20,718 nt of DNA, taken from IMG/VR virus record IMGVR_UViG_3300020172_000848, positions 1 through 20,718 of that record, one strand, 5' to 3'. This stretch comes from a virus. Below are positions 3,367-15,163 of this stretch, piece by piece. The stretch's first letter is position 1. Each line of letters starts with the position of its first letter. The notes under the pieces are model-generated. The model searched no databases. It was not told where the DNA came from and saw only the letters and a list, made by a program, of their open reading frames with translations. A program made the translations under genes and the position numbers.

Positions 3367-4023
3367 ATGGCATACAGCCGTGGTTCAAGTAGTAACATCA
3401 TCGTAGGTGCAGCAGCACTATTTACGCATGATGCAGGTCCAATCGGATATGATTCAGCAAGTGGAGCAATTACTGATACTCAAGCAGCATCAGATCTTCC
3501 AGTGTTTACAGCATCCGCAACATCTTACAAGGACACATTGTCAACAGACAATGCATACACAAACGTAGGATATACAACAAATGGTTTGGAACTCGCATTC
3601 CAACCAGATTTCGGCGAAGTAGCAGTAGATCAACTTCTCGACGTTGCTCGTTTATTCAAGCAAGGTATGACAGTTAATCTAAACACTGCATTCGCAGAAG
3701 CAACACTAGAAAATCTTCTAGTAGCAATCGCAGCAGATGACTCAGATCTAACATCAGCATCAGGAGTTTCACAACTCAAGATGTCTGCTGGTGATATCGG
3801 AGACGTTCCGCTAGAGCGTGGACTCGTAGCAGTAGGACCAGGTTCTGGTTCTTCTCTAGAGCCAAAGGAAAGAATTTATGTTGCATACCGTGCACTCTCA
3901 ATCGAGAGCGTAACAGTATCAGCAAAGCGTGATGAGGCTTCAATGTTTGAAGTATCATTCCGTCTTCTTCCAAACGACAATGCATCATACGGAAAGATCG
4001 TAGATCGTTCCCTAGAAGCATAA
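3367..4023 (+). CDS. Major tail protein (tail tube)
   Basis: A 218-residue protein forming the tail tube lumen. The start at ATG 3367 is preferred over an in-frame ATG at 3349. The ribosome site AGAGGTG (3354-3360) lies inside the longer form and is correctly spaced for 3367. The protein is Ala/Ser/Thr/Asp-rich with beta strands (NVGYTTNGLELAFQPDFGEV, VYVAYRALSIESVTVSAKRD-like segments, ASMFEVSFRLLPNDNASYGK), as in siphovirus tube proteins. It lies between terminator and chaperone genes, the canonical place. Seven of eight arginines use CGT, whereas low-copy neighbours favour AGA, a sign of selection for high expression. It is flanked by its own promoter-like box and a strong terminator, consistent with high, insulated transcription. 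Confidence 0.8.
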   Translation: MAYSRGSSSNIIVGAAALFTHDAGPIGYDSASGAITDTQAASDLPVFTASATSYKDTLSTDNAYTNVGYTTNGLELAFQPDFGEVAVDQLLDVARLFKQGMTVNLNTAFAEATLENLLVAIAADDSDLTSASGVSQLKMSAGDIGDVPLERGLVAVGPGSGSSLEPKERIYVAYRALSIESVTVSAKRDEASMFEVSFRLLPNDNASYGKIVDRSLEA

Positions 4024-4040
4024 TACAACTTAATATATGA

Positions 4041-4075
4041 GAGGCTCAATCCTTCGGGGTTGGGCCTTTCTGTTT
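4041..4075 (+). terminator. Strong intrinsic terminator with UUCG tetraloop after the tube gene
   Basis: A stem of 11 pairs (4042-4052 with 4057-4067; a twelfth G-T pair is possible) closes the stable C(UUCG)G tetraloop at 4053-4056. It is followed by a T-rich run ending TTTCTGTTT. It starts 17 bases after the tube stop codon. The stem includes a TTG at 4060 that is an unlikely start for the next gene. Confidence 0.9.
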
Positions 4076-4083
4076 GGTATACT
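4075..4083 (+). promoter_or_regulatory. Extended -10 promoter driving the long chaperone gene
   Basis: TGGTATACT gives TG at 4075-4076 and TATACT at 4078-4083, immediately after the terminator. No -35 box is visible. The expected transcription start, six to seven bases downstream, falls on 4089-4090, exactly at the GTG start of the next gene, so the message would be leaderless. Confidence 0.5.
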
Positions 4084-4089
4084 TATATA

Positions 4090-4770
4090 GTGCCTACAGA
4101 AATATACAAAACCTCTATAATTGAACTCTTTGATGGAACAGAGTTGTACATCACTCCATTAAAAATAAAATACTTAAAGTTGTTTTTAGAAGAATTTGAA
4201 AATGTAAAAACATCAAAAAATGATGATGAGGCAATTAACTATTTGTCTAAGTGTGCAACAATAACCATGAGGCAATACTATCCAAGCATAAAGACTCAAG
4301 AGCAGTTAGAAGACAATATTGACATGCCAACAATCTATAAACTGTTAGACTACTCTGCTGGTATTAAAATAAATGAAAAATCTGAAGAGCCAGTAAAAGA
4401 ACAAGCAAAAGAAAGTGGTTCTACTTGGGATGAGTTAGATTTAGCAGAGTTAGAGGCTGAAGTATTTTTGCTGGGGATTTGGAAAGACTATGACGAACTA
4501 GAATCATCTATGTCAATGCCAGAGATAATGGCAACTCTTAAGGTAAAAAGAGATCTCGACTATAGTCAGAAAAAGTTTTTGGCTGCTATGCAGGGTGTTG
4601 ATTTAGATAAAGCCAGTGGTAAAGAAAATGCCTGGGAAGACATGAAGGCTAAAGTTTTTAGTGGTGGTAAGGCCGTAGATGGAAAAGACATCCTTGCACT
4701 ACAGGGAAAGAATGCAGAAAAGGCTGGGTTTGGAATTGGTATGGGTCTTGATTACGAGGTTTATGATTAG
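4090..4770 (+). CDS. Tail assembly chaperone, long form (G-like plus T-like parts in one frame)
   Basis: A 226-residue protein from the GTG at 4090. The frame is open back to a TTG at 4060, but that codon is inside the terminator stem. Starting at GTG makes the N-terminus the same length as the downstream paralog up to the shared DGTE motif (residues 15-18 in both). Residues 1-95 match that paralog at roughly 30 percent by hand alignment (DGTE, PLK, CA-I-M-Q, PT-Y). Residues 96-112 are a charged linker. Residues 113-226 (WDELDLAELEAEVFLLG, FLAAMQGVDLDKA, KAGFGIGMGLDYE) are the T-like part of actinophage chaperones, which bind the tape measure and recruit tube protein. In most phages the T part is added by programmed frameshifting; here it is continuous. 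No Shine-Dalgarno sequence precedes the GTG. Confidence 0.75.
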   Translation: MPTEIYKTSIIELFDGTELYITPLKIKYLKLFLEEFENVKTSKNDDEAINYLSKCATITMRQYYPSIKTQEQLEDNIDMPTIYKLLDYSAGIKINEKSEEPVKEQAKESGSTWDELDLAELEAEVFLLGIWKDYDELESSMSMPEIMATLKVKRDLDYSQKKFLAAMQGVDLDKASGKENAWEDMKAKVFSGGKAVDGKDILALQGKNAEKAGFGIGMGLDYEVYD

Positions 4771-4789: not shown

Positions 4790-4798
4790 TGGTATAAT
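4790..4798 (+). promoter_or_regulatory. Extended -10 promoter driving the short chaperone gene
   Basis: TGGTATAAT carries TG at 4790-4791 and a perfect TATAAT at 4793-4798, in the 53-base gap between the chaperone genes. Transcription would start near 4805, leaving a leader of about 19 bases that contains the strong ribosome site AAGGAGGA (4813-4820). No convincing -35 box is seen. Confidence 0.55.
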
Positions 4799-4823
4799 TA
4801 ACTAAACCTTATAAGGAGGAACC

Positions 4824-5150
4824 ATGGCTGACAAGCCTTTAATCAAGAAAACAATCACACTAATAGATGGAACAGAGATTGCGGTAAGACCTCTCAAATT
4901 GTCACTACTTAGACCTTTTATGGCTAAGTTTGCATTACTAGCAGAGGCATCAGACGACAATGATAAGTCAATGGATATTCTTATTGACTGTGCACAAATT
5001 GCAATGAAACAATTCAAGCCAGAATTGGCAGAAGATAAGGCAGGGTTAGAAGAACTTCTAGACCTTCCTACAGTTTACGAAATTATTGACGCAGCATCAG
5101 GTGTTCCTAACAACGATGCAAGCGCAGTATTAACTTCGTTAACTAAATAA
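4824..5150 (+). CDS. Tail assembly chaperone, short form (G-like only)
   Basis: A 108-residue protein starting at ATG 4824, three bases after AAGGAGGA, one of the best ribosome sites in the window. Its sequence (TLIDGTEIAVRPLK, FMAKFALLAEA, DCAQIAMKQFKPEL, LDLPTVYEIIDAASGV) aligns over nearly its full length with residues 1-95 of the upstream long chaperone, but it lacks the T-like extension. It therefore looks like the abundant G-type chaperone that coats the tape measure. No second frame downstream could supply a T part by frameshift, because the tape measure begins 20 bases after its stop. Placement immediately upstream of the tape measure is the canonical chaperone position. The alternative, an unrelated small protein, is unlikely given the shared motifs. 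Confidence 0.75.
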   Translation: MADKPLIKKTITLIDGTEIAVRPLKLSLLRPFMAKFALLAEASDDNDKSMDILIDCAQIAMKQFKPELAEDKAGLEELLDLPTVYEIIDAASGVPNNDASAVLTSLTK

Positions 5151-5170: not shown

Positions 5171-8100
5171 TTGGCAGATGTAAACTCTAATATAAATATT
5201 AATTTTAATACGGCTGCCGCTCTTGCACAACTTCGTCAACTACAGGCAGGCCTCAGTAAGTTTCATCAAACACTTGCTGAGGGTAACCTGGCTGCTGCAA
5301 ATGCTCAAAAAGGCTTAAACGCCCAACTACTACAATCTGTTGGGGCAACTGGAAAATTCTCTGCAAGCCAAGTAAAGGTTGCAGGAAGTACCCTAGCATT
5401 TACCTCTGCTTTAGAAAAAAACAAACTATCACTTCGTGAGTACTATAGATACACTATGGCAGCAGCAACTGCCAACACCCGTGTTATGGGTAAGGCTTTT
5501 GCACAAGAGCGAGAAATTATTAATCGTGCACGTAGAGACAGAGTAAAAGCACTACAATCACAATACATCCAAATGAACAAGGCCAATGCTGGCTTTATGG
5601 ATGCAATTAGAATTATGCCTAAAAGCCTTCAAATGGCTAGTGGAAAATTTACGGAACTTGGAACAAGAATTCAGTATGCTGCACAAAGACAGCAGTTCCT
5701 TAATCAACTATTAAAGCAGGGATCTACACAACTACTCAACTTTGGTAAGAATACTCAATGGGCAGGCCGTCAGTTGATGGTTGGTTTAACAATGCCTTTG
5801 GCTTTATTTGGTGCAGCAGCAGCAAAAGCATTTAAAGATTTAGATGCTGAGATTGTAAAGTTCCGTCGAGTGTATGGAGATGCTTTTACAAATGATGCAG
5901 AAGTCAATGAAGCAGTTGAAAACATAAGAAGATTAGGAAACGAATATACAAAGTATGGAGTTTCTGTAACAAAGACAATGGAGATGGCAGCAACCGCTGC
6001 AGCAGCAGGTTTTCAGGGAGATGCTTTAACAGCACAAGTTGAAACAGCAACAAAGTTGTCAGTCCTGGGTCAGATAGAACAACAGCAGGCACTTGAAACT
6101 ACAATATCTTTGCAAAGCGCATTTGGAATTTCTAGCGAAGATCTTGCAAAGAAGATTGACTTTCTTAACGCAGTTGAAAACCAGACACTATTATCTATTG
6201 AAGATTTAACAATTGCAATTCCAAAAGCAGCACCAGTTGTAAAGCAACTGGGAGGAACAGTAGAAGATCTTGCATTCTTCCTAACAGCAATGAAGGAAGG
6301 TGGAATTAATGCATCAGAAGGCGCTAACGCACTAAAGTCTGGTCTTGCATCTTTAATTAATCCATCTAAAAAATCAGCAGCATTCCTCGCTGATCTTGGA
6401 ATTAACATTCGTGGAATTGTTGAAGGAAATTCTGGAGACATTAAGGCAACAGTTGTTGGCTTTGCTCAAGCACTTGACACACTAGATCCCCTTAATCGTG
6501 CTCGTGCAATTGAACAGTTATTTGGTAAGTTCCAGTTTTCACGTTTATCAACACTGTTCCAGAATGTAACAAAAGAAGGAAGCCAGGCATCCCGTGCTTT
6601 TGATCTAGCAGGATCATCAATAGAAGAGTTAGCCGTTTTATCTGAACGAGAAATGAAAAAGATAGAAGACTCTACTGGAGTTAAGTTTCAGGCAGCCATA
6701 GAAAAGTTTAAGCAAGAAATCATGCCTTTAGGAAAAGCATTCCTTGAAGCCTTAACCCCAATTGTTAAGTTTTTTGGAGGATTGTTTGAAAAGTTTAACG
6801 GCCTCAGTGATCAAACCAAAAAAGTTGTTGCAACTATTATTGGTGTCGTAGCAGGCTTAGGACCAATCGTTCTTATGACATTTGGTTTACTTGCAAACGG
6901 TGTTGCAAATGTTATTAAATTCTTTGCAATGCTTCGTGGTGGTATTGCTAAACTAAATGGACAAACATCTGTAATGGGTGCAGGGTTTAACTATATGACT
7001 CAAGAGCAGATAGAATCTGCTACAGCATCTCAGCAACTTCATCAAACACACACCAGACTAATCGAAGTATTTAATGTTGAAAAAGCATCTGTAAATAACC
7101 TTGCTGCATCTTATCATGCTTTAAGCACACAGATGAGATCAATGGCATCACAAAATCCAGCATTGTTTGCTGGAGGACTTGGGGGAGCAAAAGTAGCAGC
7201 AAGTAAGTTGCCACCAGTTAGAAAATACATAGATGGCGTTATAAGCGTACCAGGTCCAAAGGGTGCAGGAGATGTTGTGCCAGCAATGCTTTCTCCTGGA
7301 GAAGCCGTCATTCCTACAGAAACAACAGATAAGTACAGAGGGTTAATCACAGCAATGTTCCAGGACAAGGTTCCAGGATTTATGGCTGGAAGACTTCCTG
7401 GAGGACCAGGTAGAGGAATTCCTTTATCTTCAGGACCAGAGGCAGTTAGAAAAGCACAGCAAGCAAAGTACACAAGACAAAGTGATGCACGTCAAGGGTA
7501 CGATGGGCCACACCCAGAAAGAAAAACTGGTCCAGTATTTGTTGGAATGCCAAAGACCTTTAAAGAAGCGTCACAGTCTAGACAAATGCTTGACAAGATT
7601 TCTGAAAGAACAAGTCTTGGAATATTTGGGACAATGCCACCTTCAAACTTTGGAAGAAAACTTCAAGGGTTTAAAGGATACAGTTTTCCTGACACATCAA
7701 TTGGCGGGGTATATAGAAAACCTAATGGAAAAGTTGTAGTAATAAAGCCAACAGTAAGCGCAGATACTGCCCTAGCAGAAGTCCGTATGGCTGAGATTGA
7801 GGCTGCAAGAGGAATGATTGTTCCAAAGCAACAGATAAGAACAATGATAGATCCAACAGATCCTACAGGACAAAGAAAGTTTATTGTCCTTGAGTCTCCA
7901 TATGATAGAAGATTTGTGGACATGGATGGTAAGTTTTCAAAAGGTGACATGGTTAAGCAGTTGGTTGGTTCAACACTAAGAGGAGACAAAGACTTACAAA
8001 AGTCAAATGTATCTGGAAATAGAGTACCAGATCTGAGCAATGCTGGAGTATTTGATAGAGCGTCTGGTCTTAGAGAATACGCTGATGTAATGCCAAGTAT

Positions 8101-11100
8101 GAAAGAGCAAGCAATGATTAATCTTCTTGCGGTAAAGGGTCGTGCAAGAAAAGACTTTGCCCTATCAACTGCGCCTATTGCAGCAAAGATGACTCCCAAG
8201 GAATATGACGACGCAATTAAGGGAGAAATTAATAGAACTATTCCTATAGTAGAAAGAATTATTAAGTCTTGGAATCTAACCCCAGATGAGCAAATAGTGT
8301 ATGGAAAAATGCTTGATAGGCTTAAGGCTGGAGCAAAAGTAGAGTGGGATCAATTCCAACCAATTCATGCTCGTGCTGGGCAGGGCATTGTAAAGGCAGA
8401 TGATGGAATTGGTTCAGGAGCAAAGGGTTCAATTGTTCAAAAACAAATAGAAAAATACTTAATTGGATCTGATGATATTAAAACTAAGCAGATTTCTGAT
8501 TTATCAGAAAGTGTAGAGAAAGAATTTGCATCAAAAGTTAAAGAACTTAAAGCACGGGGTGAAGCACAGGTTGGTGGCACTTCAGCAGAAAATAGAGCAA
8601 GAATAGTACAAGCAGCATGGAATGGTGATGTAGTTCCTCTGCCTCCTTCTGGCAAAGATAAAAATTGGAGTGCCAGACAGACAATGTTCCAGAACGAAAT
8701 TCGAAGCATGATTCCGATCAACGTTGATGGTGTAACAAAGTATCTTCATCCAGATGATATGGACTCATTTAAGTCAGATCCTGACCACAGAGCAAAATAT
8801 GCTAGAACAAGACAGGAAGTAATTGATAACGTTTTATACAGAATGGGTGTTATTCCAAATAAAGATGGCGTTTTTGTTGATAAGGGAGGGTTTAAGGGAA
8901 GGTTTGCAAATAAAACAGAATTTGCAAAAGACCTAAGATCAAGCAACAAAGAAGCAGGTGGTGGCATTAACATGACAAGCAAAGTTGTTAAACCATTTGC
9001 AAAAGAAGAAATCAAAGAATACAATGCAAGAGTAGGAAATCCTCTTAAAACACAAACAGGACAATGGATGCTTGCTAATGGCTGGTCTCCAGATGAAGTA
9101 AGAGATAGATTAAAAGAAAATCTTTCACACATAGAAAAAGAAGTTACTGGCTCAACCGCTGGCGCAGAAAAGATGAAGACTGGAAAAGCACTTTATGATG
9201 CAAGATTATTAAATAATTATCTAAATGCAGACAGAAGAAGTTCTAATATTCTTGCTTGGAATGGAACTGGACCTAATAATATTTTAGGATTATCAGATAC
9301 AGAAATAGAAGAATATAAAAAAGCAGCAGCATTTATGGAAAGAGAACGCCATCCACAGAATCCACAAGAAAGAGCCCTTCTTTCTAAAGCCGTAGAATTA
9401 GATCAAAAAGTTATCGAACATAAGAGTAAAGGCAATTATGTTCCATCAAACTTGCTTATACAAGATCAAAGAGTTCCTAAAGCATTACAAATGTTATTAA
9501 AAGATCCTAAGATACAGCCAGGAAGATTAATAGACCTAGCAGCAACAACATCAGATAAGGTTTTTGTAAATCCTGGTAATGAGTTTAAGGTTAACACGAA
9601 GTCTGGAAAAGAATCAAAACTAACACAGGCTAACACTAATAAACCACCTGCAAATGCAAAGCCAAGCAGCGGAAGCATTAGAGATACCAGAACAACATCT
9701 CTAGGGGCACACGAAACAGTTGCAACAAGAAGACAACTTATGAATTTCCGCAGAGGATTTACACCTCCGCCTGGATTCTCTATGCCTGGTATGGTTTATG
9801 GAGATCCAAGACTAGACCAACAATCAACAAGAGGGGGTTCACTAAGCAAGGCAGCACAAGGAAGAGTCACTAATGCTATGCAAAAGCAAGCACAACTCCT
9901 AAAACAAAGAAACAACTTGACTCAAAAAGAAATAAACCAAGCACTAACCCAATACAGAACAAGGCTTATTGCTGCTGAAGTTGAAAAAAGAAATCAGCAT
10001 GAAAAGCAAAAAGCAATGGCTGATGAAAAAAGACAAAGAGCACAATCATCTCAAACCGCAAAAGAAATTGCCAGACAAGAAAAAGCAGATGCAAAGAGAG
10101 ATATCAAAGAAAAAAGAATGGCTCGCCAGCAAAAGATAGGTGGCATGTCAGGTGGACTATCAATGGGCCTTGGAACTGCAGGTATGGGTCTTATGATGGC
10201 TGGCCAGCAAACAGCAGGTATGGCGGTAATGGGAGCATCTGCAGTTGCAGGTCTAGCGCCAATGTTTGCGGGAATGGGTCCAGGAGGGTTAATTGCTACA
10301 GGAGTTGTTGCAGTCGGGGCAAGTTTGTGGGCTTTGGATAAGCATTTTGAAAATGCAGCAAAGAAGCAGGCAGAGTTTATTAGTTCGGTTTCTGCAACAA
10401 CAAAAAAGATGGATCAAATTGGAGAAGTTACTGGCAAGGTCGGTGCTTCTCGTGCAATGGAGCAGTTCAGAAGCAAGGGATCTTTTGGTGACTATAACGA
10501 TGTAAGCCGTGCAGGAACTCAATTTGGAGATACATTCTTAGAGTCTGAAGTTGGAAAAGAAATGGCTAAGGGCTTTGTTGATAACATGGCTCGTTTTGGA
10601 TCAAAGCAGGCATCTCAAGACTTTGGTCTACAGTTAGCAACATACATTTCTGACGGGGTATTAACATCAGATCAAGCAGCAAGCATTGCAGAGCAAATAG
10701 GCGTTGAGTTAGGAAGCAGATCATATACAACAAACATCCAAGCAGAGGTTAGAAGTTTAGTAGGTCCAAACGGAGAAGACTTAGCAAAAAATGCTTTAAC
10801 CGTAAGAACCAACTTAGTACAAGAAGCAAATAAAAGATCTGTAGCAGAACTAAATGCACTACAGCAAGGTGGCGGTAGGGATAATGCAGCAAGAGTTGCA
10901 GGACTTTCTTTAAATAATATTGAAATTGCCAGAGCACAAAACGATGCTACTGAATGGCAATATAAAAAACAAATTCAAATATTTGAAAAGCAATTGCTAC
11001 AAACTACAGTACTAGAAAAGCAATTAGAATTAAAAACAAAAATTTCTGAACTTGAATCCAAGATGGAAGCAGACACAAAAGTAACAACGGACCTGCTTAA

Positions 11101-14100
11101 CAAACAGATAAAAGCAGAAATGGATGTGTTTGCAAATAACATTCAAAAGAATAGAAGTGCACTCACCGCTTGGTTCCTTCCTGGAGACGATGAGGAAGAC
11201 GCATACTTCACTGGACTGAAAGCAAGAGTTCAAGAAAGATTTAAAGACACATTCCCAGGGTTAACAGCACAACTTCAAAAAGACCTTGCGGGACTAAGCA
11301 ACAGAACAGACCTAGGAATAAAAGGATTTACTGGTGGCCAGAAAGAGGCGCAACAGTTTGAAGTTTTTGCAAACCTTATGATGGGACAAGGTTTTACAAA
11401 TCCTCAACAGTTTAAGGAGTTTATGACTCTTTATGCTGGTAACGAAGGAAAACTTTCTAAAGATCTACAAATTGCCGTAGATGCACAGGGCCCAGAAAAG
11501 GCATTTGAAATGCTTCAATTCTTTACAGAATATGCAGACAAGCCCTTTGCTCAAAAGATATATGCTGATATTATTACTAAAGATCCTAAGCAGTTTGATA
11601 AAATTGGAAAAGCATTAGCACAACTGTCAGTGCTAGATAGTAAAGAGGTAAATGTTGAGGCTTACCTTAAACTTGTAGGTGCTGATGGTTTAGAAAAATT
11701 AGCAAATGATTTAGCAATAATAGACAATATTCCAGATGTTACAACCAAAGAGGCAATCCTTAAGTATTTTGAACAGGGCTCTGGTAAAGGTATGGCTGGA
11801 ATGGACAAGGCTGGACTTGAAACATTAATGGCTAAATGGAAGAATTGGGATAAACTTCCAGATGTAGCAAAGAAAGAAGCCATATCAAAATACAAAACAA
11901 TTTATGAAACTGTATTTGCTGATGAAGCAGCCCGTATTGATTATGCACAAAAAATAGCAAGAGAAAAAGCAAATGCAGGGTCAGACGGCGGAAGACAAAC
12001 TTATTTATATGAATTTATATATAGAAGTACATATGAAACATTAATGAAGGGTGATAAGAATCAACAAGCATCTGCCATTGCTTCTGCTGGTGCGTATGAA
12101 TATGTTGGCGAAAAAGGAGTTGTAGACCCAAAGGTTCCAGGGGTAGTTCCAGATTCTTCAGGCACTGGCACAAAAGTTGATCCATATGCCAACCTACTAA
12201 AAAGATTAAAGGAAGTTAGAAACGCAGCCATTGATGCTAGTGGTGGAATTAAGGCTCTTAATAAGGCTCTAGCAGAAGGAAATGTAACCTCTGTTAAAAA
12301 TAAATATCAGGGTATTGAACAGCAACTTCAAGGCAAGGGATATAACCAAGGCTTTATTGATTTTATTCAGGGGATGGATCCAAAAGAACAAGCAAAGTTT
12401 ATGAGAACTGCTTCTAAGGCAACAAAGGGCAAGTACAAGGGCCAGGTTGTAAATCCATTTTCAAAAAAGCCAGCAGCCAAGGGTAAGACTCCTTTTAAGG
12501 CTGGACAAGTATTCTTAAGTGAAGATGCCAAAAGCATGGGTAGTGGGTTTGATGCTTTAGTAAGCGGAGAGTTTAACACTCAAGCAGACAGACAAATAAA
12601 AAGTTTAAAGTACCAAGAAGATGCATACAAGAAATTACGTGCTGCTGGCTATGATCATCTAACCTCACAAAAAATAGTTTCTGACGAGTACCTTGCTCAA
12701 TCTATTTCTTTAGGCAAAATAACAACAGAAGAGATTGCAAAAAATGGAGTTCTTGCAAAAGAAATAGTTACAAGACAAAAGATTAATGGTTTAATCCAAA
12801 GCGGTAGAGACAAGATTAATGAACAAAACATGTATCTAGCAAAGTCAAAGACTGAAGTTTCTAAGGTACAAGAACTTCTAATGTTCATGGGTTCTAAAAA
12901 TATTAAGTTTGGTGAAGGCGCAATAAGAGATATCCTTGGCGACCCAGAGACTTTGTCCGCTCTTATAATGGCGATGGATGATGTAAAGAATAATACTGAG
13001 GGCGCAGCCAAGGCAATGGAAGATTTGGTTGCTGGCGTAAAAGCATTAAAGGATAATTCTGATATTGAGTTAGCAATAAAGATTGTTACACAGACAGCCA
13101 CCGAAACAGTAAGTATGGGTGCACAAGCAGCACAAAGAATAAATGATGCTCTTAAGGGTGTATATAAAAACTTAACTGCTTCTGAGTTGGGCAAAGTAAC
13201 TTCGTTTAATCCAAAAACAAAGGTTACTAAAAATACTGGTGCTCAAGCAATTGAGAATGTAGGCAAGAGATATGCTGCTGCTGGTGCAACAGTTCCAAAG
13301 GTTGACCCAAATGCAAAGCCTGGTTCAAAAGGATTTGACTCAGCCGACACTGTAAGAAGTGTACAAAAAGAAAGAGCCGAATTAGGAAAAACTATTAGTA
13401 TTGCTCAATCAAATGCTAATGCTGCTCAGCAAGCATATAGTAATATTATGGATTCTATTAGAAATGCAGACGAGAACTTAAGAAAAAATATAGATGGAAT
13501 AACAGAAAGATATAAAACACAGGTTGGTGGACTTGACGATCAAAATAAAAAAATAAAAGATGCTGAAAAAATACTAGATGGATTTACAGAAAAGGAAGAT
13601 GAACTTAATAAAAACAATGCTATGTACAGTAATGACTTAGCATTAATAGATAACTTGTCTGATGACATCAACAAAAAGTATGACAAGCAAGTAGAAGCCC
13701 TAGAGACTGTTAATAAGTTAAATGAACAAATTGCTCAAAGTCAGCAACAACAACTTGACCTAGCAGACGCTTTGTCTCAAGGTGACATAGCAGCAGCAGC
13801 CCGTGCAGCACAAGAAATGAGAGCAACATCTGCAGCAAACCAAGGCGATGCCATGATGCAGGGTCTTGAAAAATCAAGACAAGGCGAACTTGGCGCATTG
13901 GTTGGACCTGAAAGTGGAATGACCAGACTGCAGATTGAAAAAGAGCAGTTTAGAATTAGTCAAGAACTTTACAAACTTGAGACTCATCCAGATAGGAAAG
14001 CGGCTAATGAGGCTATAAAAGAGGCCAAGAAAGCAATTGCAAAACTTGAAGAAGATATGGCAGCAGAGATTGCAAAGGCTGAAGAAGACCATAAAGCAAT

Positions 14101-15163
14101 TGTTGAAAGTTTAAAGGCAGCAGCAGAGAATGCGAAAAAGATAGCAGACGATGCAGCAGCAACTGTTAAGAGCCTGGAAGCAGAAGACACTGCACTAGCA
14201 AGCATTGAAGATTATTTAACTGCAATTGCAGAAGAAGCAGCAGCGCTTGATGAGTCTACAGGGTATACATTAGAAGATTACTTAGAAATGCTTGAAAAGA
14301 TGCCAGACCTTGTAAAACTTGCACAAGACTATAAGGAAGCAATGGTAGCAGCAGAATTAGCATCAGGCAATATGAGTAAGAGTTGGACAGAGATCTTGGC
14401 ATCCATTAATGCCCTTCCAGAAACAATTAACATTAAGTCTGTTCTAGATATTGTAGAAAATATAACTAGAAACATAACTGAATATATTACTACAGTTAAT
14501 CTTAAATCTGGAGCAAGTAGTAGCAGCAGCAGTAGTAGCAGTAGTAGTAGCAGCACTGGCGGTGCACCAGGAAAAGCATGGCTAAAAGATGGCAATGGTG
14601 TTTGGATTAAACCAACTAAACCTTTTGGAGATTACGAATGGAATGATAACGAGGGCTGGACAAAAGAAACAAAAATAGATCCAAACGACGGAGACACTAT
14701 TTTAAAGAATGCTGCTAAAGCAGCAGCAGAAAAAGCAGCAGCAGAAGCAAAAGCAAAGGCTGAGGCAGATGCAAAGGCAGCAGCCGATGCTGCAACAAAC
14801 AACTTATTAAATGGTGGATCCTTCTTTGACTTTAGCGATGGTTATAGAGCAAAGGGCGGACTAATCAACCCAATGAAGTTTGCTATGGGTGGTTTTGCTA
14901 GAGGAACAGATACAGTCCCAGCAATGTTAACACCAGGTGAGTTTATTATGAGCAAGTATGCGGTACAGGCCCACGGTATTGATACTATGAAAGCAATCAA
15001 CAGTGGCAAAACAACAGGTGGGGCAGTGTATAATAATACATATGCACTAACTGTTAACGCCAAGACAGATGCAAATCCAAACGAAATCGCACAAGCAGTA
15101 ATGTCAACAATTAAACAAGTTGACGACAGAAGAATTAGAGGAGTGTACTTAAATGCCAGATAA
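5171..15163 (+). CDS. Tape measure protein, 3330 residues
   Basis: Sets tail length and fills the tube. The start is TTG 5171, eight bases after AGAGGTG. Residues 1-180 are helical. About 185-460 (FGKNTQWAGRQLMVGL, KTMEMAATAAAAGFQGD, FFLTAMKEGGINASEGANAL) match the TP901-type tape measure core. A hydrophobic stretch lies at 550-590, and a first VPAMLSPGE motif at 703-711. Residues about 770-1560 are a non-helical-looking region containing a possible kinase-like lobe (828-1000). A charged coiled coil follows at 1567-1655, then a Gly/Met/Ala-rich hydrophobic stretch at 1656-1723. Two 42-residue repeats lie at 2173-2240, a long coiled coil at about 2730-3025, and a 13-serine run at 3116-3128. 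A Trp-rich patch follows, then an Ala/Lys-rich helix, a second VPAMLTPGE at 3249-3257 and a conserved C-terminus. At 1.5 angstrom per residue an all-helical protein would span about 500 nm. Most known tape measures are far shorter. Confidence 0.92.
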   Translation: MADVNSNININFNTAAALAQLRQLQAGLSKFHQTLAEGNLAAANAQKGLNAQLLQSVGATGKFSASQVKVAGSTLAFTSALEKNKLSLREYYRYTMAAATANTRVMGKAFAQEREIINRARRDRVKALQSQYIQMNKANAGFMDAIRIMPKSLQMASGKFTELGTRIQYAAQRQQFLNQLLKQGSTQLLNFGKNTQWAGRQLMVGLTMPLALFGAAAAKAFKDLDAEIVKFRRVYGDAFTNDAEVNEAVENIRRLGNEYTKYGVSVTKTMEMAATAAAAGFQGDALTAQVETATKLSVLGQIEQQQALETTISLQSAFGISSEDLAKKIDFLNAVENQTLLSIEDLTIAIPKAAPVVKQLGGTVEDLAFFLTAMKEGGINASEGANALKSGLASLINPSKKSAAFLADLGINIRGIVEGNSGDIKATVVGFAQALDTLDPLNRARAIEQLFGKFQFSRLSTLFQNVTKEGSQASRAFDLAGSSIEELAVLSEREMKKIEDSTGVKFQAAIEKFKQEIMPLGKAFLEALTPIVKFFGGLFEKFNGLSDQTKKVVATIIGVVAGLGPIVLMTFGLLANGVANVIKFFAMLRGGIAKLNGQTSVMGAGFNYMTQEQIESATASQQLHQTHTRLIEVFNVEKASVNNLAASYHALSTQMRSMASQNPALFAGGLGGAKVAASKLPPVRKYIDGVISVPGPKGAGDVVPAMLSPGEAVIPTETTDKYRGLITAMFQDKVPGFMAGRLPGGPGRGIPLSSGPEAVRKAQQAKYTRQSDARQGYDGPHPERKTGPVFVGMPKTFKEASQSRQMLDKISERTSLGIFGTMPPSNFGRKLQGFKGYSFPDTSIGGVYRKPNGKVVVIKPTVSADTALAEVRMAEIEAARGMIVPKQQIRTMIDPTDPTGQRKFIVLESPYDRRFVDMDGKFSKGDMVKQLVGSTLRGDKDLQKSNVSGNRVPDLSNAGVFDRASGLREYADVMPSMKEQAMINLLAVKGRARKDFALSTAPIAAKMTPKEYDDAIKGEINRTIPIVERIIKSWNLTPDEQIVYGKMLDRLKAGAKVEWDQFQPIHARAGQGIVKADDGIGSGAKGSIVQKQIEKYLIGSDDIKTKQISDLSESVEKEFASKVKELKARGEAQVGGTSAENRARIVQAAWNGDVVPLPPSGKDKNWSARQTMFQNEIRSMIPINVDGVTKYLHPDDMDSFKSDPDHRAKYARTRQEVIDNVLYRMGVIPNKDGVFVDKGGFKGRFANKTEFAKDLRSSNKEAGGGINMTSKVVKPFAKEEIKEYNARVGNPLKTQTGQWMLANGWSPDEVRDRLKENLSHIEKEVTGSTAGAEKMKTGKALYDARLLNNYLNADRRSSNILAWNGTGPNNILGLSDTEIEEYKKAAAFMERERHPQNPQERALLSKAVELDQKVIEHKSKGNYVPSNLLIQDQRVPKALQMLLKDPKIQPGRLIDLAATTSDKVFVNPGNEFKVNTKSGKESKLTQANTNKPPANAKPSSGSIRDTRTTSLGAHETVATRRQLMNFRRGFTPPPGFSMPGMVYGDPRLDQQSTRGGSLSKAAQGRVTNAMQKQAQLLKQRNNLTQKEINQALTQYRTRLIAAEVEKRNQHEKQKAMADEKRQRAQSSQTAKEIARQEKADAKRDIKEKRMARQQKIGGMSGGLSMGLGTAGMGLMMAGQQTAGMAVMGASAVAGLAPMFAGMGPGGLIATGVVAVGASLWALDKHFENAAKKQAEFISSVSATTKKMDQIGEVTGKVGASRAMEQFRSKGSFGDYNDVSRAGTQFGDTFLESEVGKEMAKGFVDNMARFGSKQASQDFGLQLATYISDGVLTSDQAASIAEQIGVELGSRSYTTNIQAEVRSLVGPNGEDLAKNALTVRTNLVQEANKRSVAELNALQQGGGRDNAARVAGLSLNNIEIARAQNDATEWQYKKQIQIFEKQLLQTTVLEKQLELKTKISELESKMEADTKVTTDLLNKQIKAEMDVFANNIQKNRSALTAWFLPGDDEEDAYFTGLKARVQERFKDTFPGLTAQLQKDLAGLSNRTDLGIKGFTGGQKEAQQFEVFANLMMGQGFTNPQQFKEFMTLYAGNEGKLSKDLQIAVDAQGPEKAFEMLQFFTEYADKPFAQKIYADIITKDPKQFDKIGKALAQLSVLDSKEVNVEAYLKLVGADGLEKLANDLAIIDNIPDVTTKEAILKYFEQGSGKGMAGMDKAGLETLMAKWKNWDKLPDVAKKEAISKYKTIYETVFADEAARIDYAQKIAREKANAGSDGGRQTYLYEFIYRSTYETLMKGDKNQQASAIASAGAYEYVGEKGVVDPKVPGVVPDSSGTGTKVDPYANLLKRLKEVRNAAIDASGGIKALNKALAEGNVTSVKNKYQGIEQQLQGKGYNQGFIDFIQGMDPKEQAKFMRTASKATKGKYKGQVVNPFSKKPAAKGKTPFKAGQVFLSEDAKSMGSGFDALVSGEFNTQADRQIKSLKYQEDAYKKLRAAGYDHLTSQKIVSDEYLAQSISLGKITTEEIAKNGVLAKEIVTRQKINGLIQSGRDKINEQNMYLAKSKTEVSKVQELLMFMGSKNIKFGEGAIRDILGDPETLSALIMAMDDVKNNTEGAAKAMEDLVAGVKALKDNSDIELAIKIVTQTATETVSMGAQAAQRINDALKGVYKNLTASELGKVTSFNPKTKVTKNTGAQAIENVGKRYAAAGATVPKVDPNAKPGSKGFDSADTVRSVQKERAELGKTISIAQSNANAAQQAYSNIMDSIRNADENLRKNIDGITERYKTQVGGLDDQNKKIKDAEKILDGFTEKEDELNKNNAMYSNDLALIDNLSDDINKKYDKQVEALETVNKLNEQIAQSQQQQLDLADALSQGDIAAAARAAQEMRATSAANQGDAMMQGLEKSRQGELGALVGPESGMTRLQIEKEQFRISQELYKLETHPDRKAANEAIKEAKKAIAKLEEDMAAEIAKAEEDHKAIVESLKAAAENAKKIADDAAATVKSLEAEDTALASIEDYLTAIAEEAAALDESTGYTLEDYLEMLEKMPDLVKLAQDYKEAMVAAELASGNMSKSWTEILASINALPETINIKSVLDIVENITRNITEYITTVNLKSGASSSSSSSSSSSSSTGGAPGKAWLKDGNGVWIKPTKPFGDYEWNDNEGWTKETKIDPNDGDTILKNAAKAAAEKAAAEAKAKAEADAKAAADAATNNLLNGGSFFDFSDGYRAKGGLINPMKFAMGGFARGTDTVPAMLTPGEFIMSKYAVQAHGIDTMKAINSGKTTGGAVYNNTYALTVNAKTDANPNEIAQAVMSTIKQVDDRRIRGVYLNAR
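7652..8170 (+). other. Possible kinase-like lobe inside the tape measure
   Basis: Residues 828-1000 do not look like tape-measure helix. A Gly-Gly turn (845-846) sits in a hairpin leading to VVVIKP, with Lys859. A helix with Glu870 and Glu875 follows. Then comes a strand IVLESP (905-910) that resembles a hinge. This is the order of a kinase N-lobe of the PI4K/HipA type. A later NLLAVKGRARKDFAL (984-998) lies where such families carry their DRxxxN catalytic loop, but the signature residues are not clearly kept. This could be a degenerate or very divergent kinase, or a chance resemblance. Fold-level comparison is needed to settle it. Confidence 0.3.
11687..11890 (+). repeat. Two 42-residue repeats within the tape measure
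   Basis: Residues 2173-2198 and 2215-2240 share the pattern GLE-x-L, then PDV-x-x-KEAI-x-KY at the same offset (P2188 and P2230, exactly 42 residues apart). A weaker third unit may precede them from about 2140. The repeats are divergent at DNA level. Such units may be added or lost to change tail length. Confidence 0.5.
14516..14554 (+). repeat. AGT/AGC trinucleotide run encoding 13 serines
   Basis: Thirteen consecutive serine codons, seven AGT and six AGC, none of the TCN type, encode residues 3116-3128 of the tape measure. The run sits between an N-rich beta-like segment and a Trp-rich patch and probably acts as a flexible hinge. A pure AGY run suggests trinucleotide expansion with later point changes. 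Confidence 0.85.

Follow-up and report, generated by a model that had tools for sequence, protein, structure and literature searches.

Two genes that lie between the tail tube gene and the tape measure gene of an uncultivated virus raise the question of where translation of the first of them begins, and whether its message carries a leader at all. The stretch of DNA analysed in this study, hereafter the window, comprises the 20,718 nucleotides of the IMG/VR virus record IMGVR_UViG_3300020172_000848. A reading of the sequence alone had proposed a leaderless GTG start for this gene, placed directly behind an extended -10 box. In the following, this proposal was followed through the window, the upstream regions of the relatives, the related phages in which the two domains of the gene are in different frames, and the genomes of large relatives. 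The coordinates of the features are collected in Table 1.

Table 1. Features of the window around the two chaperone genes.
Feature	Position	Strand	Basis
Probable tail tube (major tail) protein gene	3367..4023	+	ORF; PHROG 2175 'protein with Ig domain'; gene position
Intrinsic terminator in the gap between tube gene and chaperone gene; tail extends into the promoter	4039..4070	+	terminator scan, fold, relatives
Extended -10 promoter TGG TATACT, without -35	4075..4083	+	sequence; kept in relatives
GTG start codon, coinciding with the predicted (leaderless) transcription start	4090..4092	+	6-nt gap kept; protein alignment begins here
ORF1, 226 aa, putative long tail assembly chaperone with G and T in a single frame	4090..4770	+	PHROG, homology
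T domain within ORF1, beginning at the conserved motif [ST]W[DE]EL	4423..4767	+	
Extended -10 promoter TGG TATAAT, 25 nt upstream of the start of the second gene	4790..4798	+	motif count
Shine-Dalgarno sequence AAGGAGG of the second gene	4813..4819	+	sequence
ORF2, 108 aa, separate short (G-only) putative chaperone copy	4824..5150	+	paralogy, PHROG 10504
Tape measure protein gene, starting with TTG behind AGAGGTG	5171..15163	+	ORF; Pfam PhageMin_Tail

The start site and the chaperone genes of the window

In the window, TGGTATACT occupies positions 4075-4083 and the GTG positions 4090-4092, with six bases between the hexamer and the GTG, and the claim that an extended -10 box ends at 4083 with the GTG at transcription-start distance was thus borne out by the sequence. 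The absence of a Shine-Dalgarno sequence before this codon was likewise confirmed. Leaderless genes, common in Actinobacteria, are marked by a TANNNT signal some 12 bp ahead of the start (PMC3160421), and the first T of the TATACT, at 4078, lies 12 bases before the GTG, at the distance found in such TA-led genes. The frame of ORF1 is open from 4024, and the TTG at 4060, which is in frame, sits within the predicted terminator stem, as had been claimed. Moreover, 14 residues precede a conserved Asp when ORF1 is read from the GTG, the same number as in the paralog at 4824, in agreement with the earlier statement on N-terminal length. The 5' end of the ORF1 message is very likely to be at GTG 4090 or within one base of it, and translation of this phage tail-building gene very probably begins at the first base of its message.

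By itself the motif TGNTATAMT is not rare, since the window contains three sites against 2.3 expected. All three sites (332, 4075 and 4790) are on the coding strand and in gaps before genes; behind the first and the last come leaders with Shine-Dalgarno sequences, and the leaderless distance is found only at 4075. A promoter scan that required a -35 hexamer omitted the 4075 site, whose -35 region is covered by the terminator, and returned 52 sites in total against 52.3 in shuffled sequences. The 63-nt fold over the terminator had a z of -4.7, and with 14 pairs this hairpin has the most among the terminator-like sites of the window, which are not in excess (14 against 12.9 by chance). As a separate observation, positions 290-358 hold a G/C-rich inverted repeat, seen by eye and absent from the terminator scan, followed by TGATATAAT and AAGGAGG and by a gene at 359; this is perhaps a second terminator-promoter pair, but a leadered one.

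The tube ORF was listed from ATG 3349, and the ATG at 3367 is preceded by GAGGTGAG; this gene occupies the position at which Streptomyces phages have their annotated major tail protein. ORF1 matched PHROG 10504 at residues 1-100 and PHROG 10474 at residues 130-218, both of unknown function, and ORF2, which also falls into PHROG 10504, shares 34% identity with the N-terminal domain of ORF1, so that the two are paralogs. Pfam gave no match above the cut-off for either protein, and the N-domain profile found no credible relative in the PDB (two weak matches, best E 0.04). The AlphaFold2 model of ORF1, built with 13 sequences, reached a pLDDT of 51 and a pTM of 0.42, too poor for a test of the chaperone fold. 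ORF1 is, however, homologous to the tail assembly chaperone of Streptomyces phages together with an ORF in its -1 frame, and both genes lie between the tube and tape measure genes, which is where tail assembly chaperones are located; homology and gene order thus suggest a tail assembly chaperone function for ORF1 and ORF2. As with gpG and gpGT, they represent a short and a long form with a common N-domain. The G and T domains share one frame and no T frame was found after ORF2 in the window, and for this reason the window was not placed in the class in which frameshifting makes the long form. The tape measure gene that follows is very long, encoding 3330 aa.

Upstream regions of fused and shifted loci

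Viral contigs were scanned with the ORF1 protein, which gave 80 loci, and three further profile scans added more. Each scan contributed its best 80 loci, and all locus counts hold among the matches listed. In total, 320 loci were examined and 314 kept, four being dropped with less than 45 nt upstream and two without a full G domain upstream. Because single contigs gave several loci, these were collapsed to distinct 45-base upstream sequences, yielding 131 fused loci (G and T in one frame) and 27 shifted loci (T in the -1 frame), those of Streptomyces phages among the latter; L142 and L188, with a misplaced start, were left out.

In the first 80 loci, the block TTTGNTATAMT-N6-ATG/GTG was unchanged in nearly all rows, the exceptions being a gap of 9 nt in L082 and a shifted discriminator in L019, and this block from promoter to start stayed while the terminator sequence ahead of it varied. 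Among the distinct fused loci listed, TGNTANNNT stood 5-9 nt before the start in 127 of 131, with gaps of 5 nt (3 loci), 6 nt (69), 7 nt (14), 8 nt (14) and 9 nt (27) and with four loci having it elsewhere or not at all. In three of the four (L231, L300 and L329) the -10 at 6 nt lacks the TG element, and L241 is atypical in having no extended -10 at 5-9 nt. By a Markov model, an extended -10 at 5-9 nt has a chance of 1.7%, against its presence in 100 of 102 distinct fused sequences. The shortest gap was seen in L216 and L240, where TGCTATAAT lies merely 5 nt ahead of the ATG. Conservation of the spacing, which the sequence-only reading had named as a check on its proposal, was therefore found.

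No complete or partial Shine-Dalgarno sequence was present in the 131 distinct fused loci among the matches listed, whereas all 27 distinct shifted loci listed had one, complete or partial (at least 4 bases). In 24 of the 27, the extended -10 was 22-43 nt before the start, and in the other three none occurred within 60 nt; the shift was -1 in all 27. A second G downstream of T was found in 129 of 131 fused loci, the contigs of the other two ending 0 and 111 nt after T. After the shifted loci there was no second G in any of the 27, of which 26 had at least 600 nt of room. The second gene itself was preceded by a full or partial Shine-Dalgarno sequence in 116 of 119 distinct relatives, and for the other three the script had chosen an upstream TTG. 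Its nearest extended -10 lay at 23-30 nt in 92, at 14-15 nt in 19 and at 33-42 nt in 8 of these relatives.

The terminator is also kept in position. Of the 102 distinct fused relatives, 98 had an uninterrupted hairpin of at least 6 bp ahead of ORF1, in 96 cases with a T-rich tail, and a hairpin of at least 6 bp stood upstream of the chaperone in 22 of 23 shifted loci as well; such a hairpin with a T-rich tail was found ahead of only 5 of 119 second genes. RNAalifold on a MAFFT alignment resolved only five pairs, of which two had changed on both sides, and these terminator counts were therefore made on the individual sequences. A further observation in this gap concerns a box, ACAACTTAATA and close variants, between the stop codon of the tube gene and the terminator (window 4025-4035; L249:6991); a box of this type lay in the 110 nt ahead of the start in 47 of the 131 distinct fused loci and in 2 of the 27 shifted ones.

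The start codons provided a separate expectation. In mycobacteria, a 5'-terminal ATG or GTG is necessary and sufficient for leaderless initiation, and TTG fails there (PMC4633059), so that a leaderless reading of the fused loci predicts the absence of TTG. Among the matches listed, the 131 distinct fused loci started with ATG (127) or GTG (4) and never with TTG, and TTG was used in 7 of 27 distinct shifted loci; in the earlier sets, TTG was absent from all 102 fused loci and present in 6 of the 23 shifted ones (Fisher p = 2e-5, a value that takes no account of kinship). The fused relatives thus combine the lack of a Shine-Dalgarno sequence with an ATG or GTG start, as TA-led actinobacterial genes do, and the GTG of the window appears to be a rarer form of their ATG leaderless starts. 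Taken together, the spacing in the relatives, the missing Shine-Dalgarno sequence and the restriction to ATG and GTG support the leaderless GTG start originally proposed. That reading had not taken in the wider setting, a fused long putative chaperone in a clade without the frameshifted arrangement seen in its relatives.

Shifted relatives, the large genomes and the host

In the phage collection, 130 records matched, of 127 Streptomyces and 3 Rhodococcus phages, all less than 60% identical, and among the matches listed the match came in two pieces. In three Streptomyces phages these were the annotated tail assembly chaperone and a second ORF, lying between the major tail protein and the tape measure, with G and T overlapping and T in the -1 frame. 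The terminator and the extended -10 were in place in the same three phages, the latter 24-33 nt before the start with AGGAGG or GGAAAGG in between, and thus the position of the promoter is common to both forms while the leader differs. In loci L083-L085, the T frame upstream of [ST]W[DE]EL contains no Met, Val or Leu; with no ATG, GTG or TTG ahead of it, the motif is reachable by a shift only. Read from these frames, the relatives would make their long form by frameshifting.

A quick tree was built from 91 representatives (69 fused and 22 shifted), with a long-branch warning that concerned shifted rows (L190, L211, L246, L186 and L187). The fused loci formed one side of a branch with an SH-aLRT of 98, and the shifted rows nearest to them (L245, L208 and L190) are viral contigs that are leadered and lack a second copy. 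A scan that targeted shifted loci added four more distinct ones, all leadered. In a tree of G domains from ORF1, ORF2 and shifted loci, which has few columns and is weakly resolved, three groups appeared with three label changes against a minimum of two, which fits a single duplication. The fusion, the duplication and the leaderless start thus fall on one branch; by these trees they would have arisen once and been kept across the sampled clade. In the genome collection, a first scan found no relative, and a second found one contig (L246) from the MAG of an uncultured cyanobacterium, in the shifted and leadered form, which is perhaps a mis-binned phage contig and was left aside in assigning the host.

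The pattern extends beyond the chaperone gene. For 714 ORFs of at least 80 aa on both strands of six large relatives (36 pieces), the spacing between a strict extended -10 and the first ATG showed a sharp peak at 6 nt (27 ORFs), with 50 ORFs at 5-9 nt against 2 for a reversed-motif control. None of these 50 ORFs had a Shine-Dalgarno sequence by a rule that finds one for 270 of 662 first ATGs. Furthermore, of the 473 strict motifs in the six genomes, 55 had an ATG at gap 6 and 9 at the control gap of 11, and neither GTG (2 of 473) nor TTG (7 of 473) was enriched at gap 6; the rarity of GTG there is a point against the leaderless reading of the window. The enrichment suggests that leaderless ATG starts are habitual in these phages. 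WhiB, which is described as confined to actinobacteria and serves as a mark of actinophages (PMC6802176), was found in 8 of 8 large relatives and, among 14 control genomes, in Corynebacterium glutamicum alone. This supports an actinobacterial host for the phage group of the large relatives, on which the leaderless start had been said to bear.

Initiation mode and the short and long forms

In the mechanism proposed here, RNA polymerase with what we infer to be the main sigma factor of the host would recognise the extended -10 without a -35, immediately downstream of the tube-gene terminator, and would start transcription at GTG 4090 or within one base of it. The resulting message would be leaderless, and the ribosome would initiate at the 5'-terminal GTG to produce the long, gpGT-like chaperone. 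On transcripts reading through from the tube gene, the same GTG would be internal and without a Shine-Dalgarno sequence, and little long form would be expected from these. The short, gpG-like chaperone would come from a separate gene, transcribed from an extended -10 promoter of its own into a message that has a strong Shine-Dalgarno sequence and a leader of about 19 nt. Since the terminator is kept before ORF1 and rare before the second gene, the first promoter probably transcribes the long gene, the short gene and onward, and the second probably adds message for the short form. Two genes with different modes of initiation would thus provide the short and long forms, replacing the apparent one-gene -1 frameshift of the relatives. 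As an overall explanation, a leaderless long form and a Shine-Dalgarno-led short form from two genes is considered likely.

The exact 5' end may vary within the clade. A leader of 1-3 nt, and hence near-leaderless instead of strictly leaderless initiation, is suggested by the 7-9 nt gaps of 55 of the 131 distinct relatives, for which such a leader is as likely as none, and a start at A4089 would leave 1 nt in the window. The window, however, belongs to the 6-nt group, and the genome-wide peak at 6 fits one preferred distance from the -10 to the first base, so that a short leader is rather improbable here. Far less probable is initiation further upstream, for example at TTG 4060, or a read-through message from the tube gene without a promoter of its own. 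The open frame would permit such a start, and at least one in-frame ATG, GTG or TTG before the next upstream stop was found in 31 of 102 distinct fused relatives. Nevertheless, such a codon was absent in the other 71, TTG 4060 sits in the terminator stem, the terminator is kept, and the start is without a Shine-Dalgarno sequence in every distinct fused relative. The leaderless start at GTG 4090 is therefore retained.

What this start does to the ratio of the two forms is a more tentative matter. A leaderless long form and a Shine-Dalgarno-led short form would move the ratio in one direction, and a scarcity of the long form brought about by the leaderless start seems to us just short of an even prospect. 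Leaderless and leadered translation were comparable in mycobacteria (PMC4633059), and in a second study a leaderless message was weaker than one leader and equal to another (PMC7148126); with a strength in mycobacteria that ranges from equal to clearly weaker, this step is best worded as a possibility. Nearly even, too, is the prospect that the leaderless start and the fused, duplicated chaperone are independent traits of one branch with no role in the ratio. The joint change occurs once on the tree, so that the association amounts to one event in which coincidence is possible; moreover, leaderless-type starts are found on about 50 of the 714 ORFs of the large relatives, and leaderless translation can be robust (PMC4633059). 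Against independence stands the contrast within the locus, where a Shine-Dalgarno sequence is missing before every distinct fused gene and present before nearly all second copies. Somewhat more doubtful is the full proposal that the lineage exchanged the -1 frameshift for a fusion of G and T, a duplication of G and a Shine-Dalgarno-free leaderless long form behind a terminator, with promoter and initiation mode setting the short:long ratio.

Several known systems share parts of this arrangement. TA-led actinobacterial genes likewise have a TANNNT about 12 bp upstream, no Shine-Dalgarno sequence and an ATG or GTG (PMC3160421, PMC3898074, PMC4633059), but in the window the start belongs to a putative tail chaperone gene of a phage, and a terminator covers the -35 region. 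In Cluster O mycobacteriophages, leaderless promoters have been predicted whose +1 falls on the initial base of the start codon; the chaperone of these phages, however, is described with a programmed frameshift, and the leaderless promoters named are elsewhere in the genome (PMC4351075). The Stanwilliamsviridae (Streptomyces phages EGole, Braelyn and Circinus) have the same order of tube, terminator, extended -10, chaperone and tape measure, with homologous G and T domains, but differ in having T in the -1 frame of G, a single G and a leader with a Shine-Dalgarno sequence. Lambda gpG and gpGT are also short and long forms with a common N-domain and a role in tail assembly, made by -1 frameshifting at a short:long ratio near 30:1 that is called crucial for tail assembly, whereas the window has two genes (PMC5009743). 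T4-like phages have a short gene and a long fused gene without a frameshift (Vladimirov et al. 2022 as cited in PMC10885494); they are another phage type, the citing passage mentions no leaderless start, and the likeness is one of arrangement only. Some Microbacterium phages have separately expressed chaperone ORFs with no evident frameshift (PMC7302621). Predicted leaderless phage genes (PMC4351075) and two-gene chaperones with a short and a fused form (PMC10885494) are accordingly already known, and in the open-licence literature searched, no paper among the matches listed joined a leaderless start to the arrangement of a short and a fused long chaperone.

In conclusion, leaderless starts are well known, and the present analysis places a predicted one on a gene whose dosage relative to its partner matters in the assembly of the lambda tail. 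The clade, whose phages were seen here as viral contigs only, would be a natural case in which gene duplication has taken the place of apparent frameshifting, and its leadered relatives grow on laboratory Streptomyces. For these phages, an extended -10 followed after 6 nt by a start codon, mostly ATG, may serve as a rule for the correction of gene starts, and the locus offers a testable link between the mode of initiation and the stoichiometry of tail assembly.
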